Below, in pieces: positions 1,385 to 18,681 of a DNA stretch of 35,382 nt. The notes beneath the pieces were generated by a model. It did not search any database. It was not told the origin of the DNA and worked only from the letters and a program-made list of their open reading frames with translations. The position numbers and the translations under genes are program-made. The stretch is from an uncultured Chloroflexota bacterium (lineage in GTDB: Bacteria; Chloroflexota; Limnocylindria; Limnocylindrales; Limnocylindraceae). Location of the stretch: NCBI GenBank assembly GCA_903944295.1, contig CAJARA010000076.1:1-35382 (forward strand), in the 5' to 3' direction. The first letter of the stretch is position 1. Each line of letters opens with the position of its first letter.

Positions 1385-1407
1385 ATCGTAGGGGAGGCGG
1401 CTACACT
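1385..1407. promoter_or_regulatory. candidate overlapping divergent promoter (TACGAT on -, TACACT on +)
   Basis: TACGAT reverse strand (1390-1385) 6 nt before ATG 1378; TACACT forward (1402-1407) 8 nt before ATG 1416. Confidence 0.45.
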
Positions 1408-1415
1408 TAGTCGCT

Positions 1416-1439
1416 ATGTCGAATGAGCAGCAACCATGA
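1416..1439 (+). other. candidate leaderless mini-ORF (MSNEQQP*) overlapping the J-domain gene start
   Basis: ATGTCGAATGAGCAGCAACCATGA; TGA overlaps ATG 1436 as ATGA; ATG lies 8 nt after a -10-like TACACT. Confidence 0.4.
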
Positions 1440-2143
1440 AGCGCGGCGACCGTAGTCCGCACGAGGTGCTCGGCCTGACGCCTGGGGCGAGCGCCGAGGA
1501 GATCCGTGGCGCGCGCCGGCAGCTCGCTCGCACGCATCACCCTGACAACTTCTCTGGCGACGCGGCGGGGGCGCGGAAGGCGACCCGTGAGATGGCGCTG
1601 ATCAACGCCGCCGCCGAGGCCTTGCTAGCCGAAGCCTGGGCCGCCGAAGATCCCGCCACGGTGGTGCCGCCACGCGGTGGGCACCGCCCTGAGGCGCCGG
1701 TGACCGGTCGCGTGGAGCTCCCGAACGCGCCGCGCTTCAACGCGCGCACCAGCGAGCCAACGAGTGTGAACTGGCGACCAGAGGCGCCGTGGCCAACGCG
1801 CCCCGCCGCACGACCGAGCGGTCCACTCCCCGGCACACCAGCGGGACCGGTGCGACGCCGCGTCGACCCAGCCGCCGCACTGCGCCCACGCATCTCACTC
1901 GAAGCGGCACGCGAGTTTCTCTTCGCATTCGGTCGCTACGCCGGACTCACCGTTGGTGATGTTGCGCTGCGCGACCCTGGTTATCTCGCCTGGTGCATTG
2001 ATAACGTGCGCCGCGATCCAGATCTTGTGCAAGCGGCGGATCTTGTGCTGACGCAGCTGATGGAGGAGTACGGCATGGAGCGCCCAGCGCGTGGCAGCCT
2101 GCACCGACCATCGCCAGTCGGATTCGATGGAGTCTCCGACTGA
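1436..2143 (+). CDS. J-domain (DnaJ-like) protein
   Basis: N-terminal J domain SPHEVLGLTPGASAEEIRGARRQLARTHHPDNFSGD with HPD motif; Pro/Arg-rich linker; C-terminal domain unrecognised. Confidence 0.8.
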   Translation: MKRGDRSPHEVLGLTPGASAEEIRGARRQLARTHHPDNFSGDAAGARKATREMALINAAAEALLAEAWAAEDPATVVPPRGGHRPEAPVTGRVELPNAPRFNARTSEPTSVNWRPEAPWPTRPAARPSGPLPGTPAGPVRRRVDPAAALRPRISLEAAREFLFAFGRYAGLTVGDVALRDPGYLAWCIDNVRRDPDLVQAADLVLTQLMEEYGMERPARGSLHRPSPVGFDGVSD

Positions 2144-10627: not shown

Positions 10628-11923
10628 GTGTCTGATCCACTGCCGATCCCACTGAAGGAGAGCAGGCTCGCCAACGGCCTTCGCCTGATCACCGTGGTTG
10701 ATCGCACCGCACCGATCGCAACAGTGAACCTCTGGTATCACGTTGGATCCAAGGATGAGCGACCGGGTCGCACTGGCTTTGCGCATCTCTTTGAGCACCT
10801 GATGTTCCAGGGTTCCGCAAACGTCTCAAAGGCTGAACATCTTTCGTTGATTGAATCTGTTGGTGGAAGTGCGAACGCCACCACGTGGCTCGATCGCACC
10901 AACTACTTCGCCACGGTGCCAGCCGAGTGGGTGGAGCTGATCCTCTGGATGGAGGCGGACCGACTCGGCACACTCCTCGCCGCACTCGATCAGGCGAACC
11001 TTGATAACCAGCGCGATGTGGTGAAGAACGAGAAGCGCTCCAGCTACGACAACCAGCCATACGGCACCGCTTACCTTGAGCTGCTCGCGCTCGCCTACCC
11101 GAAGGGGCATCCGTACCACCACCCAACGATCGGCTCCATGGAAGATCTCGACGCGGCGAGCCTGCAGGATGTGCACGACTTCTTCGCCACCTGGTACGCG
11201 CCGAATAATGCGGTGCTCACCGTTGTTGGCGACATTGATGAGGCGGAGATCGCCGCTGCGGTTGAGCGACACTTTGGTGGCATCGCCGCAAACAGCGAAC
11301 TCCCAGAACATCCGAACCTTGCACTGAGCGCACCACTCGGCGGTGAGATTCGGAAGACGGTGAAGGATAAAGTTCCAGATCCGCGTCTCCACCTCGCCTT
11401 CCGCGCACCAGTCCTTGCGAGCCCCGACCTTCCTGCGCTCGAGATCGCCTGCCAGATCCTTGCCGGTGGCCGCGGGAGCCGCCTGACGCGGCGTCTGGTG
11501 CGCCAGGAGCAGGTGGCGCAGGATGCTGGGCTCTCCGTCCTCCCGTTCGTTGGCGGTGCGTCGCTCGTTGTGGGCTCCGCAACGCTCCGTCCTGGGGCGA
11601 ACGCCGCAAAGATGGAGTCGCTCTTCTTTGAGGAGCTCGCCGGACTCGCCGCTACGGGACCAACGGCGAACGAGATGGAGCGCGCTCGTGCGCTTATTGA
11701 ATCAGAAGAGATGTCGCTCCGCTCCGATCCTGAATCGATCGCCGACCAGATCGGCATGTACGCCACCCTCCTCAACGACCCTGGTCGGATCAATCGCGAC
11801 CTTGCGATCTATCAGGCGGTTGACGCTGCCGCAGTGCAGCGCGCGGCGGCGCTCTTCTCTGCAGAGAACCGCGTGGTGCTCTGGTACGAACCAGTTGAGC
11901 AAGCTGCGGTGGAGACAGCATGA
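10628..11923 (+). CDS. M16-family zinc metallopeptidase (catalytic subunit)
   Basis: HLFEHLMFQGS (inverted HxxEH zinc motif) with downstream E; GTG start with GGAGG upstream. Confidence 0.92.
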   Translation: MSDPLPIPLKESRLANGLRLITVVDRTAPIATVNLWYHVGSKDERPGRTGFAHLFEHLMFQGSANVSKAEHLSLIESVGGSANATTWLDRTNYFATVPAEWVELILWMEADRLGTLLAALDQANLDNQRDVVKNEKRSSYDNQPYGTAYLELLALAYPKGHPYHHPTIGSMEDLDAASLQDVHDFFATWYAPNNAVLTVVGDIDEAEIAAAVERHFGGIAANSELPEHPNLALSAPLGGEIRKTVKDKVPDPRLHLAFRAPVLASPDLPALEIACQILAGGRGSRLTRRLVRQEQVAQDAGLSVLPFVGGASLVVGSATLRPGANAAKMESLFFEELAGLAATGPTANEMERARALIESEEMSLRSDPESIADQIGMYATLLNDPGRINRDLAIYQAVDAAAVQRAAALFSAENRVVLWYEPVEQAAVETA

Positions 11924-13293
11924 GCGCGCAGCGACCGGGCCCAGGGAGTCCACGCGAGTACCGCTTCCCGCGCTCAGTTGAGCATCTCACCGCGAGCGGT
12001 CTTCGCATCATCGTCTTACCGATGCCGGCGCGACCACTCGCCTCCGTACAACTCCTCCTCCCAGGTGGGGCGGCGCTAGAGACGGCGAGCAACTCCGGCC
12101 TCACTGCGGCGCTTGCGCGACTCCTCACTGAGGGAGGGGAGCAACACGATGCGGATCAACTTGTTGAGGCGAGCGAGCTGCTCGGTGCGAAGATCGGCGC
12201 AGAGGCTGGATGGGAGAGCGTTGTGATCGGCGCTTCGCTGCCAGCGAGCCGTCTCGCAGGGATCCTCGACCTGGTCGCGGAGATTGCACTCGCGCCACGC
12301 GTCCCCGAGCGCGAGGTAGACCGCGTCAAGGCGTTGCGACTCGCGGCGATTGAGCAGTCGCAGGCGAGCCCACGTGCGCGCGCCAGCGAGGCGCTGATCG
12401 CGGAAATCTATGGCGCATCCGCTGCCTACTCACGCCCGATGGGCGGCACGCGCGAAAGCGTGGCGGCGATCAGTCGCGATGCGCTGATGGAGCGCCACGC
12501 GCTGCTCCTCGGCGCAGGGGTGCCCACTGTGGTGATTGCCGGAGAGCTTGAAGCTGCCGAAGTGATTCGCACGGTTGAGTCGAGTCCGCTCGCGCAACTG
12601 CGCGCCGCGGCCCCAGTCGCGCCAACTGCAGCGGATGCACCATCACCCGGCGGCGCTGGGACCGCGGCTGCGCCGCGACTCCTCCTCCTTGATCGACCGG
12701 GATCGGTGCAGTCTGAGCTGCGCATCGGGAAGGTCGGTCGCTCTCGCCTTGATCCGCTCTTCTACGCCGCGCTAATTCACTCAGAGGTGCTCGGCGGCCT
12801 CTTCGGCTCACGCCTGAACCGCGTGCTGCGTGAAGAGAAGGGCTACACCTACGGTGCCGCCGCAGGCTTTGAGTTCCGTCGCGGACGTGGACCGTTCACT
12901 GCGCGCACGGCGGTGGAGAGTTCTGTCACAGCACCTGCGCTCGTTGAGGCGCGCGTGCAGATCGCCTCCATGACGCCGCAACCACCATCAGATGACGAAC
13001 TCAACGCGGCGCGTCAGTACCTTCGCGGCACCTTCCCGTTGCGCTTCGGCTCCGCCTCACCAGTTGCCGGTGCCGTTGCAGGACTTGTTGCCGTGGGGCT
13101 CGAGCCTTCCGAACTTGATCGCTTCCAGTCGGCGATTGATGCGGTGAGCGGTGACGAGGTTGCGCGCGTTGCTGCGGCGCTCGACGCTGAGACCGAACGC
13201 ATCGTGGTCGTTGGTGATGCGGCAACTGTTGCCACACCACTGCGCGACGCCGGATTCGCCGTAGAGGTTCGCGGCGATGCGAGGGACGCATGA
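11920..13293 (+). CDS. M16-family peptidase-like protein (non-catalytic partner)
   Basis: M16 fold sequence (LRIIVLPMPARPLASVQLLLPGGAALE...; REEKGYTYGAAAGFEFRRGRGPF) but the HxxEH position reads LARLLTEGG. ATGA overlap with the catalytic gene. Confidence 0.88.
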   Translation: MSAQRPGPGSPREYRFPRSVEHLTASGLRIIVLPMPARPLASVQLLLPGGAALETASNSGLTAALARLLTEGGEQHDADQLVEASELLGAKIGAEAGWESVVIGASLPASRLAGILDLVAEIALAPRVPEREVDRVKALRLAAIEQSQASPRARASEALIAEIYGASAAYSRPMGGTRESVAAISRDALMERHALLLGAGVPTVVIAGELEAAEVIRTVESSPLAQLRAAAPVAPTAADAPSPGGAGTAAAPRLLLLDRPGSVQSELRIGKVGRSRLDPLFYAALIHSEVLGGLFGSRLNRVLREEKGYTYGAAAGFEFRRGRGPFTARTAVESSVTAPALVEARVQIASMTPQPPSDDELNAARQYLRGTFPLRFGSASPVAGAVAGLVAVGLEPSELDRFQSAIDAVSGDEVARVAAALDAETERIVVVGDAATVATPLRDAGFAVEVRGDARDA

Positions 13294-13865
13294 CCGAGCA
13301 GGGGGTGATCGTCATCATTGGCAGCCCAACGGCACTGCCAGATACGAGCGGGGTGCACCAGGCTGGGGGGCTCGCGATCCGGGTTGCCGCTGAACTTGTT
13401 CGGCGCGGTGAGCGCGTGGAGCTTGTTGGTCGTGTTGGTGCGGATGCGGCGGGCGATCAGGCGATCCTCTCCCTCTCGCGCGACGGGATCGGTCATGTTG
13501 CGCTGTTGCGCGACCCCGCACTGGTGACCCCAACTGGCGACGTGGCACACGGCATTCCCGTAGATGCGGGGGACGTGCAGCTCGGTCTTCGCTATTTGAC
13601 GAGCTTCACTACGGTGCTGCTGATTGATCCGCTTGATTCCTCCGTTGTTCGCCAGGTGACAGAAGACGCCTCGTTTGTTGGCGCGCAGCTGATCATCGTT
13701 GCGAAGAGCCCCCTTCCCGCTGACGGCTCAGCCGCGTCTGCAGCGCTAGGGGGAGGCTCGCCGCCACCCCTCTTCATCCCGCGCCCCCAGGTTGAGGGGC
13801 CAGAGTTTGACGTCCTCCTCGTTGGGCTCGCCGCTACGGAGCGCGGCGCTGAGGCGGGGGTCTAG
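13290..13865 (+). CDS. half-length PfkB/ribokinase-like protein
   Basis: QAGGLAIRVAAELVRRGERVELVGRVGADAAGDQAILSLSRDGIGHV matches PfkB N-terminal signature; ends at 191 aa with no recognisable C-terminal DTxGAGD ATP/anion-hole motif. Confidence 0.65.
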   Translation: MTEQGVIVIIGSPTALPDTSGVHQAGGLAIRVAAELVRRGERVELVGRVGADAAGDQAILSLSRDGIGHVALLRDPALVTPTGDVAHGIPVDAGDVQLGLRYLTSFTTVLLIDPLDSSVVRQVTEDASFVGAQLIIVAKSPLPADGSAASAALGGGSPPPLFIPRPQVEGPEFDVLLVGLAATERGAEAGV

Positions 13866-15055
13866 TGGAGCTAGACGAGCTACTTGAGTCGAGCGGGCCG
13901 ATCAGCCCCAGTGACGCTGGCCGCCTGATTGACGCTGGTGCCGATGCGCTGGACGCGGGTGACGCCGAGCTTGCCCTGAACTACTTCCTGCGTGCCGCAG
14001 AGACCGGTCAGCTTGAACTAGCGGGTCGTGGCGCGATTGGGGCCGCTGAATCACTCGTACGACTTGGGCGCGATGACGAAGCGGTTGAACTCCTAGAAGA
14101 GGCGGCAGAGAGTGGCGACCGCGAAGTTCGCTTTGTTGCGCGACGCCGCCTCGCAGTGCTTCACGTCACTGCTGGCAAGCTTCCACAGGCGCTGAGCGAA
14201 TACCAGCGCGCTGAGCGCGACGCGCCAACGGAGGCGGCGCGTGCAGAGATTGCGGCTCGGATCGGCTGGCTTACCCAAGAGACGGGTGGGAGCAAGCTGC
14301 GTTCACGTCTCGCCTTCTCTCGATCGCGCAGCGGCGGCAGAGAGCGCCTCCTCCCACTCGCCATGGTCGGTGTCACCGCCGTTGTCTCTGTTGCGGCACT
14401 CGCCTCATCGGCGATCCTTGAGCCCCTCGCGTTGATCAAACTTGACGTGACGCGCGGCGACCTGCTCACCCTTGAACCGTGGCGACTCCTCACGGTTGCC
14501 CTCGTTCATGGCAGTCCGCTGCATCTGCTCTTCAACCTCTTCGCTATGGATCTTGGCGCGCGACTCGTGCAGCGACTCTACGGTGCGCAGCGACTCCTCC
14601 TCTGGTATCTCCTCGGCGTGATCGCCGCATCGCTCGCGAGTGCGATCTGGTCACCGCTCACGCCATCTGTTGGCGCATCTGGTGGCGTCTTCGCCCTCTT
14701 CGGTGTGGCGCTCGGCGCAGAGTGGGCACATCGGCCACTCGTTGAGCGCGGCGTTCGCGCAGCGCTTGGCCAGATCGGCGGGCTGATCCTTGTCAACCTC
14801 CTCTTCGGTCTCGGCACGAGCGTTGTGGGTGGTGGCATCGACAACGCGGCGCATATTGGTGGCCTGGTCTTCGGTCTCCTCCTTGGCGTCTTCATTGCGC
14901 CAACGCGAGCCGAGTCGATGCGGAGCCGTTGGAGCGGCCTCGCCGCCAGCCAGTCGCGAGAGGGTGCCGCGACACTCATCCTTAGCGTGCTGCTCGTGCT
15001 GATCTTTGTGAACTGGTTGAGCTTGGCGCAGCTCCGCGTCCAACTGCCGATCTAG
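13865..15055 (+). CDS. rhomboid-family intramembrane serine protease with N-terminal TPR-like region
   Basis: WRLLTVALVHGSPLHLLFNLFAM, GASGGVFALFG (GxSG catalytic Ser), AHIGGLVFGLLLG (catalytic His); N-terminal helical repeats. GTG start overlapping previous stop (TAGTG). Confidence 0.88.
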   Translation: MELDELLESSGPISPSDAGRLIDAGADALDAGDAELALNYFLRAAETGQLELAGRGAIGAAESLVRLGRDDEAVELLEEAAESGDREVRFVARRRLAVLHVTAGKLPQALSEYQRAERDAPTEAARAEIAARIGWLTQETGGSKLRSRLAFSRSRSGGRERLLPLAMVGVTAVVSVAALASSAILEPLALIKLDVTRGDLLTLEPWRLLTVALVHGSPLHLLFNLFAMDLGARLVQRLYGAQRLLLWYLLGVIAASLASAIWSPLTPSVGASGGVFALFGVALGAEWAHRPLVERGVRAALGQIGGLILVNLLFGLGTSVVGGGIDNAAHIGGLVFGLLLGVFIAPTRAESMRSRWSGLAASQSREGAATLILSVLLVLIFVNWLSLAQLRVQLPI

Positions 15056-15057
15056 TC

Positions 15058-15837
15058 GTGTTCGCCACGCTCTTGGAGCCTGCCGCCTTCGCAGCAACGT
15101 TTGAAGAGCGGCTCGCGCTGGTGCAGCGTCTTGGCGGGCCCTTCTTCACCAGTGATCCAGAGGAGCTACGTCAGGCACGTGCCGCGGGCCTTCAGGCCGC
15201 CTACCTCGTTGTTGATCAGAACGGGCGCGATCTTGTTGCTGCGGTGCGTGGCGCTCTGGCGATCCAGCCAGAGATCGTTGCGATTCGCACCGATCGCTTG
15301 AGCGTCGCGCAACTGCACAACGCGAAGGAGTTCGAAGAGCTCGCCGCGGCACTCGTCGCCGCCGAAGGCGTTCACCGGATGATCGTTGCCGTAGATTCGC
15401 CAATCGCGCCGCTCAGCGCGGCGGAGTGGGGGAGGCTCCCGGCAGAGAGTCTCGTGATTGATCCGATCGGCGACCCGGACGCATGGCGCGCCGCCGCCAC
15501 ACTCCCTGGTGATCGTGGCCTCGTGTTGGGACTCGTACCGTCACCAGGAGCCACTGCCGCCGCAGAGCCACGCGAGGTGCTCCTCTGGGGGCTGCGCTAC
15601 GCAGCGTCACTCGGTGGGCGTGGTGGCGCACGCATCGGTTTCACCGAGCGTCCGCGGCCGCTCTCTCTACAACGTGAACAGACGGTTGTTGATGCCGTAG
15701 CGTCGGAGCGGAGCGTTGCACTACTCGCCGAACTTCTGCGACTGACTGGCGCCAACGAGGCGACGCTGCGCGACGAGCTTGATCCGCGTTCGTTCAGCCC
15801 GGCGGCGCAGCGACTGGAGAAGCGTCGTGACGGTTGA
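15058..15837 (+). CDS. hypothetical protein, possibly TIM-barrel (MetE/UroD-like)
   Basis: 259 aa ORF in the operon between rhomboid and MBL genes; RGLVLGLVPSPGA...EVLLWGLRYAASLGGRGGARIGF only faintly resembles MetE/UroD C-terminal regions. Confidence 0.6.
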   Translation: MFATLLEPAAFAATFEERLALVQRLGGPFFTSDPEELRQARAAGLQAAYLVVDQNGRDLVAAVRGALAIQPEIVAIRTDRLSVAQLHNAKEFEELAAALVAAEGVHRMIVAVDSPIAPLSAAEWGRLPAESLVIDPIGDPDAWRAAATLPGDRGLVLGLVPSPGATAAAEPREVLLWGLRYAASLGGRGGARIGFTERPRPLSLQREQTVVDAVASERSVALLAELLRLTGANEATLRDELDPRSFSPAAQRLEKRRDG

Positions 15838-16498
15838 GCTGCTCGTCCTCCCGATTGGCCCGCTCCGAACGAACGTTTCACTGATCGGCGACACGGCGCG
15901 CCGCGAGGCGGTGGTGATTGATCCTGCAATCCCGTCGCTTGCCGAACTTGTTGCTCAGCTGGCAACACGCAACTGGCAACTCGTCCTCGCCCTCTCAACG
16001 CATGGGCATTGGGATCACACGGGAGAGCTCGCCGCACTCGCATCGCATGTTCGGGCCCACGAAGGTCGGGAGCTCGCGATCGGGTCACACCCGCTCGACC
16101 GACATCGACTAGAAGATCCGCGACCGATGGCGGCGCCGTTCCCTATCCCCGCGGTGATTCCGACACGAGACCTGCAGGAGGGCGACCAGATCACGGCGGG
16201 GGAGATTAACCTTCTCGTGATGCATACACCCGGACACACGGAGGGCTCTATCTCGCTGCACGATCGCGCAGCGGGGATCCTCTATAGCGGCGACACGCTC
16301 TTCCAGGGTGCATGGGGGCGTACCGATCTCCCTGGTGGTGATGATGCGGCGATGATCGAGTCACTCGCGCGCCTCGCCACACTTGATCCAGCAACGCGCG
16401 TGATCCCTGGGCACGGGCACGAGACGCGTATTGGCGATGAGTCCGACTGGATCGCGCGAGTTGTGCAGAGCGGCACGCTGCGGATGGAGCGGCGATGA
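15827..16498 (+). CDS. MBL-fold (glyoxalase II-like) metallohydrolase
   Basis: LALSTHGHWDHTGELAAL (HxHxDH), MHTPGHTEGSISL, LYSGDTLFQGAWGRTDLPGG, VIPGHGHET. Start GTG 15827. Confidence 0.93.
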   Translation: MTVELLVLPIGPLRTNVSLIGDTARREAVVIDPAIPSLAELVAQLATRNWQLVLALSTHGHWDHTGELAALASHVRAHEGRELAIGSHPLDRHRLEDPRPMAAPFPIPAVIPTRDLQEGDQITAGEINLLVMHTPGHTEGSISLHDRAAGILYSGDTLFQGAWGRTDLPGGDDAAMIESLARLATLDPATRVIPGHGHETRIGDESDWIARVVQSGTLRMERR

Positions 16499-17223
16499 GT
16501 GACGAGGCAGCTCTCCTTCGCGAACTGGTGCGCGACGGCGTGATTGGTGGAGCGCTCGCCGCACACGTTGCGCTACTTGCAGATGCTGGCGTGCCACTGG
16601 TCGTGGCAGGCAGCAGTTCAGGACTCGCTACGCGCGTTGCAGGCGCATTCGCCGCCGCATCTCCCGTCCCTGGAGCTGCGGAGAGTGGTCGTGAGATTGA
16701 GATTAAGAGTGGGCACTACTTTGAGTGGCTCGCCGATCCAACGGGGATCGGCTGTATGGATCCGCTGGCTGGGAGTGCGCCGCGCAGTCCGCGCAGCAGC
16801 CGCCTCCGCATCGCCGGTCTCCTGAGCGGCCTTGATCCTGTGACGGCGCGTACAGCTCTTCGTGCGCTAAGCCGTGGCTTCCCCGCACTGATTGAGGCGC
16901 GTGCGACGGGCCTTGCAGAGCTTCTCGACGCGCTGCGCGCAGATCCGCACCGCGTCCCCGAAGATGATCTGCGCCGACTCGGCCTCGTCCTCTGCCTGGA
17001 CGCAACCAACCTCACCGCGGCGCACCTGATGCGCAGCGCCGAGACGGGGGATCGTCGCCCGCCGGCACTCCTCGCCGTCTGGGATGCGACGCGCGCCGTA
17101 TGGGACGACTTTGCCTGGGCCGCCGTACCAGAGCTTGCTGAGCGTTGCGGAGTTTCGCAGCCGGCATACGAGGTTCGGCATGCCGAGCGACTTCAGATCC
17201 TTGAGGCTGGCGAAATTCAGTGA
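16495..17223 (+). CDS. hypothetical protein, possibly degenerate secretion-ATPase-like (P-loop lost)
   Basis: ADAGVPLVVAGSSSGLATRVAGAF sits where a Walker A would be but lacks GK[ST]; RTALRALSRGFPALIEARATGLAELLDALRADPHRVPEDDLRRLGLVLCL resembles the C-terminal part of T2SS/T4SS CpaF-like ATPases. Confidence 0.5.
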   Translation: MSDEAALLRELVRDGVIGGALAAHVALLADAGVPLVVAGSSSGLATRVAGAFAAASPVPGAAESGREIEIKSGHYFEWLADPTGIGCMDPLAGSAPRSPRSSRLRIAGLLSGLDPVTARTALRALSRGFPALIEARATGLAELLDALRADPHRVPEDDLRRLGLVLCLDATNLTAAHLMRSAETGDRRPPALLAVWDATRAVWDDFAWAAVPELAERCGVSQPAYEVRHAERLQILEAGEIQ

Positions 17224-17260
17224 TGGTGAGCGCAGTGAGGCGCCGCGCTATCATTTCTTC

Positions 17261-17278
17261 ATGAGCCAGTCCGCATGA
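17261..17278 (+). other. candidate leaderless mini-ORF (MSQSA*) overlapping the aldolase start
   Basis: ATGAGCCAGTCCGCATGA begins 6 nt after TATCAT (17249-17254); its TGA overlaps ATG 17275 in an ATGA arrangement. Confidence 0.4.
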
Positions 17279-18681
17279 GCCACGTTGCCACCTCGCCCGC
17301 AGATCTGCTGCAGGCGCTGAACGGGTCGCTGCACGTTGCCACTGACGGCTCACTGACGGTGGTCAACGCCGATCTCTTGCGCACGAGCGGCGCAGCGATC
17401 ATCGCCTGGAGCGCCGCGTTCTCCACAGATGAGGCGACGGTGAAGAGTGCGCAGTGGATCGCACGTGCCGCAGCTGCGGCGAGCGGCGTCTATAGCGCGA
17501 GCATCGCACCGCTCTACGCCGCCCGTGCGGCGGGGGTTTATGAGGGGCTGAGCGTTCCGGCGATCAACCTCCGCTCACAGGTCTTTGACATGGCACGCAG
17601 CGCGCTCGAGTGCGCTGCGAAGATGGGCGGTGCGGCGCTGATCTTTGAGCTCGCCCGCTCGGAGCAGACCTACACCTTCCAGCGTCCGGTCGACTATGCC
17701 ACCAGCATTTATGCCGCCGCGATCGCCGCCGGCTGGCGTGGCCCGCTCTTCATTCAAGGGGACCACTACCAGTTCGTTGCGAAGAAGTACGCCGCCGATC
17801 CTGATGCGGTCGCCGCAGAGATCGCGCGCGCCTGCAGGCTCGCCGTTGATGCTGGGTACCGCAACATCGACATTGATGCCTCCACTCTCGTTGACCTCTC
17901 GCAGGCAACTGTTGCCGAGGAGCAGCGCGTCAACGTTGAGCGCAGCGCTGAGGCGGCGGCACTGATCCGCTCCATTGAGCCGAGCGGTGTTGAGATCAGC
18001 ATCGGCGGTGAGATCGGCGAAGTTGGCACAAACAACTCCACCGTTGAGGAGCTCGCCGCCTACCTAGACGGCTTTGATGTCGCGCTTGCGCGGCTACGAC
18101 CTGGCGCGCGGGGCCTGAGCAAGGTCTCCGTGCAGACAGGGACGAGCCACGGGGGCGTGCCACTTCCAGGTGGCGGCGTTGCCGAAGTTGCGCTCGACTT
18201 TGGCGTGCTGGAACGACTCGGGAAGCTGGCGCGCGAGCGCGGCCTCGCCGGTGCGGTACAGCACGGCGCCTCCACGCTTCCAGAAGATCTCTTCCACCGA
18301 TTCCCAGAGGTTGGCACCGCCGAAGTGCATCTCGCCACCGGATTCCAGAACACGCTCTACGACCACCCATCCTTCCCAACGGAGCTGCGCAGCGAGATCT
18401 CGGCATGGCTGCACGCCAACGCCGCCGACGAGGCGAAGCCTGGCGATAGCGAAGAGCAGTTCATCTATCGCACGCGGAAGAAGGCGCTGGGGCCCTTTAA
18501 GCGCCAGCTCTGGGATCTCTCCGGCAAGGGCGAGATCCTCGAGACACAGCGAGATCGATTTACGTCGCTCTTCACGCAGCTTGGTGTTGCTGGGACGCGC
18601 GACCTTGTGGGGAAGTGGGTTCCTGAACTTTCTGATCCGCTCCCTGCGGCGCCGAGCGAGCTGATCAGCGCCGCGCGCTAG
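17275..18681 (+). CDS. class II fructose/tagatose-bisphosphate aldolase-like protein (long form)
   Basis: FIQGDHYQF...NIDIDASTLVDLS...ISIGGEIGEVGTNNSTVEELAAYLDGF...GLSKVSVQTGTSHGG; 468 aa, longer than typical class II aldolases. Confidence 0.75.
   Translation: MSHVATSPADLLQALNGSLHVATDGSLTVVNADLLRTSGAAIIAWSAAFSTDEATVKSAQWIARAAAAASGVYSASIAPLYAARAAGVYEGLSVPAINLRSQVFDMARSALECAAKMGGAALIFELARSEQTYTFQRPVDYATSIYAAAIAAGWRGPLFIQGDHYQFVAKKYAADPDAVAAEIARACRLAVDAGYRNIDIDASTLVDLSQATVAEEQRVNVERSAEAAALIRSIEPSGVEISIGGEIGEVGTNNSTVEELAAYLDGFDVALARLRPGARGLSKVSVQTGTSHGGVPLPGGGVAEVALDFGVLERLGKLARERGLAGAVQHGASTLPEDLFHRFPEVGTAEVHLATGFQNTLYDHPSFPTELRSEISAWLHANAADEAKPGDSEEQFIYRTRKKALGPFKRQLWDLSGKGEILETQRDRFTSLFTQLGVAGTRDLVGKWVPELSDPLPAAPSELISAAR

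Follow-up and report, generated by a model that had tools for sequence, protein, structure and literature searches.

The aldolase locus and its mini-ORF

The window, by which we mean the whole stretch of DNA analyzed (35,382 nucleotides), comes from an incomplete MAG of 1.2 Mb in 158 contigs. The host is a Candidatus Aquidulcis-like MAG with relatives among the freshwater Chloroflexota, several of them Candidatus Aquidulcis. A gene for a class II fructose-bisphosphate aldolase-like protein is preceded there by a promoter-like element and a very short open reading frame, in the following arrangement.

16495–17223, plus strand: upstream gene, 242 amino acids, syntenic in the genus
17223–17264, plus strand: possible relay ORF, MVSAVRRRAIISS followed by a stop, overlapping the stop of the upstream gene as TGATG and the mini-ORF start as ATGA
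17249–17254, plus strand: TATCAT, predicted −10 element of a leaderless-type promoter, at the TANNNT-N6 peak and the same in the sister species
17261–17278, plus strand: mini-ORF ATGAGCCAGTCCGCATGA (MSQSA and stop), its start predicted to be the transcript +1, of equal length in relatives
17275–17278, plus strand: ATGA tetramer, the gene start over the mini-ORF stop, in all three insert-carrying species
17275–18681, plus strand: class II fructose-bisphosphate aldolase-like protein, 468 amino acids (PF01116)

Re-reading of the sequence bears out the layout described in the initial annotation: TATCAT is separated by a six-base spacer (TTCTTC) from ATG 17261, which opens the series of codons ATG AGC CAG TCC GCA TGA, and the TGA at 17276–17278 overlaps ATG 17275 of the aldolase-like gene. 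No in-frame start lies 5′ of 17275 within a 12-codon open stretch, and no Shine-Dalgarno-like sequence was seen before 17275 in the window sequence. Programmed −1 frameshifting was also considered at the mini-ORF, in which inspection by eye found no slippery heptamer. Ahead of the aldolase gene, positions 10628–17223 are occupied by a run of same-strand genes, several of which abut or overlap by four bases and which include two M16-like peptidases, a rhomboid and a protein with a metallo-beta-lactamase fold; the 242-residue product encoded at 16495–17223 has no Pfam or NCBIfam match.

A TANNNT element shortly before an ATG is a known signature of bacterial leaderless genes (PMC3160421). On the basis of simple ORF-based gene calls, three genomes of the genus have 36, 27 and 25 cases of TANNNT placed 6 nt before an in-frame ATG, versus 0–6 at most other distances. 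The TATCAT-N6-ATG arrangement matches this genus-wide signature, as expected of the leaderless-type promoter proposed initially, and it is reasonable to predict that the mini-ATG at 17261 is the +1. The promoter score of this site in the window is 7.5, compared with a lower quartile of 7.7 for leaderless genes, and that of the corresponding site in a distant congener (L010/L087; site L218) is 9.2, compared with a leaderless-gene median of 9.7.

Distribution of the two states across the genus

Orthologs of the aldolase-like gene are present in 17 of 19 genomes of the genus or family. In 14 of these 17 congeners the gene itself is directly leaderless, starting 6 nt after a TANNNT element, which contradicts the initial description of it as leaderless-incompetent. 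An insert of 14 nt separating the promoter from the gene start is found only in the window species, its sister species and the one distant congener, whose aldolase-like proteins are, respectively, 97% (sister) and 76% (distant congener) identical to that of the window species. Each insert carries a five-codon ORF that ends in ATGA, with the peptides MSQSA in the window, MSRSA in the sister species (L002/L082, a separate assembly) and MRSIA in the distant congener. The three carriers do not form one group on either protein or DNA trees, so that at least two state changes are needed; either two gains of the mini-ORF or one gain followed by losses could account for them. Since every ATG-initiated aldolase gene in the congeners opens with ATGA, the ATGA overlap by itself is not special. 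Between the window species and its sister, 4 of 14 mini-ORF bases are different, compared with 51 of 651 flanking bases (p = 0.02), and this change of peptide under a retained layout favors a role in cis.

Outside the genus, GGAG-like sequences often precede the aldolase start, and to the eye the leaderless state of this gene looks derived within the lineage. When the insert is compared with the first 14 bases of the gene, 7 of 11 positions match in each of two species (p about 0.01 in both) and 4 of 11 in the third, which faintly hints at tandem duplication of the gene's first 14 nt as one possible origin of the insert.

Other coupled genes and the leaderless background

A comparable arrangement is found elsewhere in the window, at a DnaJ-like gene.

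1402–1407, plus strand: TACACT, predicted −10 element, with an 8-nt spacer
1416–1439, plus strand: mini-ORF (MSNEQQP and stop) coupled to ATG 1436, the coupled layout being present in seven genomes of the genus
1436–2143, plus strand: protein of 235 amino acids with a J domain and an ExoX-like C-terminal motif, from sequence and domain matches

The same architecture as at the aldolase gene had been ascribed to this site; the mini-ORF and the ATGA overlap stand, but the spacer is 8 nt and not 6, so ATG 1416 may lie 1–2 nt inside the transcript instead of exactly at +1. Among the seven genomes, the mini-ORF is 20 nt long in four (MSNEQQP or MSIERQP; G000, G004, G010 and G017) and 23 nt long, with a GTGA overlap, in the other three, encoding MCVAVSST in two (G002 and G015) and MSSARRSK in one (G012). 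Two further genomes (G014 and G005) have their equivalent ATG in the reading frame of the DnaJ-like gene, which thereby has a leaderless-type start. Both states likewise occur at a gene for a SIS-domain protein, which is coupled in G005, whereas G004, G012 and G000 have it in the directly leaderless form. The recurrence suspected from two occurrences in the window thus extends to the DnaJ-like gene in seven genomes, the aldolase gene in three species and the SIS-domain gene, and comparison between genomes at the aldolase and DnaJ-like genes shows the layout kept and the peptides divergent. The pairing of an N-terminal J domain with an ExoX-like C-terminal motif in the 1436–2143 protein is itself unusual.

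How often such coupling arises by chance was gauged in about 1.8 Mb from four genomes of the genus, counting short out-of-frame ATG frames near gene starts as coupled if they formed an ATGA-type or TGATG-type overlap. At a spacing of 6 from the TANNNT element, 5 of 5 such frames are coupled, versus 35 of 92 at spacings of 10–39 (p = 0.010); widening the spacing to 6–8 gives 8 of 12 (p = 0.058). When a minimum promoter score is required, coupling is seen in 3 of 3 frames at spacing 6 and in 6 of 9 at spacings of 6–8, whereas frames that lack a promoter show it in 268 of 874 cases (p = 0.03 each). The share of coupled frames among the controls is thus 31–38%, a high rate that is due partly to about half of the genes beginning with ATGA: in the same sample, 57 of the 110 in-frame ATGs at TANNNT-N6 are followed by A. 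The enrichment over controls anticipated in the initial annotation therefore appears at N6, where it rests on three to five cases (p = 0.01–0.03), and is weaker at N6–8, where its significance depends on the control; as some of the genomes counted are related and the gene calls are rough, it is modest, suggestive and supportive only.

Proposed mechanism and alternatives

We consider the most probable explanation, judging from the sequence comparisons, to be a coupled leaderless mini-ORF that delivers ribosomes in cis and arose by a 14-nt insertion. Transcription from the TATCAT promoter would start at A17261, giving an mRNA that begins with AUG; a ribosome would initiate there in the leaderless mode, synthesize MSQSA, terminate at UGA 17276–17278 and re-initiate on the overlapping AUG 17275 to produce the aldolase-like protein. 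The mini-ORF would be a ribosome delivery step and its peptide irrelevant. The insertion would have parted the transcription-start AUG from a formerly directly leaderless gene, and would have been tolerated because 14 equals 2 modulo 3 and the gene begins with ATGA, so that the new frame ends on the old start; any 2 modulo 3 insert before an ATGA gene would yield this layout automatically, if it begins with ATG and contains no earlier stop. Because frame and overlap persist as the peptide drifts, termination-reinitiation coupling would best explain the layout.

It is also conceivable, although unlikely, that the mini-ATG is simply unused, the transcript having a leader of roughly 14 nt without a Shine-Dalgarno sequence, with direct initiation at ATG 17275 and the mini-ORF a harmless coincidence. 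Since coupling is present in 31% of the short upstream ATG frames used as controls, one such coincidence would not be rare, and the numbers at hand are small. However, the aldolase gene has the exact N6 spacing together with the coupling in two distinct lineages, coupling with drifting peptides is seen in other genes as well, and a 5′-terminal AUG should be used in an organism in which leaderless AUGs are in wide use.

Less probable still is an operon-long chain, in which translation would pass from the upstream gene via TGATG to ATG 17223, through 13 codons to the ATGA at 17261, into the mini-ORF and on to the aldolase, the internal promoter being secondary. The chain is exact in the window, and reading by eye shows the relay ORF counterpart to be intact in the sister species; in G014 (L086), moreover, the upstream gene ends as ATGA on the aldolase start. 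Against this, the upstream gene of G005, which has the mini-ORF, stops with a TAA nine bases before it; in other congeners 20–36 bases separate the stop of the upstream gene from the aldolase start, and no relay can be seen; and at the DnaJ-like gene there is no upstream gene of this kind, the ORF at 440–1540, though large, being on the opposite strand. The relay ORF at 17223–17264, which has no readable counterpart in G005, may be due to chance. In G014 a leaderless-type promoter also lies inside the 3′ end of the gene upstream of the aldolase.

Short leaderless upstream ORFs can be attenuators, and a peptide that regulates the gene in cis or trans could be imagined here. Cysteine-directed examples have been proposed in mycobacteria (Shell et al. 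2015, PMC4633059), but the aldolase peptides (five residues each) are not conserved and share no repeated residue theme, and the mini-ORF region has no match to a riboswitch or other RNA in Rfam. Peptide attenuation, for which a conserved or residue-biased leader peptide would be expected, was rejected as highly improbable. An assembly frameshift that hides a true in-frame start at the upstream ATG, the error named in the initial annotation as fatal to its proposal, is a negligible prospect even for a sequence known from a MAG only, as the same 14-nt spacing occurs in the sister assembly (L002/L082) and, with a different sequence, in the distant congener (L010/L087), and in the directly leaderless orthologs the protein begins at the residue that ATG 17275 encodes.

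Relation to known systems

The initial annotation knew of no general class of this kind; one has in fact been described. In mycobacteria, leaderless "coupled" small ORFs end as RTGA on the next gene, are enriched relative to random sites (23 of 220 versus 32 of 1000), and can keep their layout while the peptide diverges (Shell et al. 2015, PMC4633059). The ATGA at 17275–17278 is the same RTGA stop/start overlap, and the five codons of the window mini-ORF are the lower limit of the 5–50 codons by which that class is delimited. The mycobacterial class is documented by transcription-start maps, ribosome profiling and protein N-termini, whereas the Chloroflexota case is known from sequence; it belongs to another phylum, and both the directly leaderless and the mini-ORF state are found among its orthologs. 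Gene pairs with termination-reinitiation at ATGA or TGATG (PMC6728339, PMC12548453) have the same overlap and a presumed ribosome handover, but there the upstream frame is a gene, and here it is a five-codon, non-conserved ORF. MIRU insertions at mycobacterial start codons (PMC12548453) are also inserted DNA, with an internal ORF that ends in a −4 overlap on the gene and spares its expression; the insert in the window differs in being only 14 bases long, with no sign of a mobile repeat, and in lying beside a leaderless-type promoter. Ribosome delivery is a proposed function of short upstream ORFs (2025 review, PMC12548453).

The window mini-ORF is thus probably best read as a Chloroflexota case of the mycobacterial class and not as a new device, which would extend that class to this phylum; no earlier report of coupled leaderless small ORFs in Chloroflexota was found in the literature searched. 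The existence of orthologs in both states opens the origin and cost of mini-ORFs to study. In leaderless-rich freshwater bacteria, gene callers may misplace starts or miss mini-ORF frames.

Possible switching between states

A broader and more speculative proposal, which we advance tentatively, is that the 5′ ends of genes in leaderless-rich genomes are prone to lose frame through short indels because their AUGs are tied to the transcription start, and that RTGA mini-ORFs are a recurrent rescue, with genes switching between the directly leaderless and the coupled state via 2 modulo 3 indels. If so, the aldolase, DnaJ-like and SIS-domain cases would be snapshots of this process.

As a separate observation, an ABC transporter gene (L200, 8655–8700; L259, plus strand, near 507–551) is preceded by an ORF of 14 codons at a spacing of 7 nt, coupled to it through TGATG; this ORF is of equal length in G000 and G004 and encodes a partly different peptide in the two.
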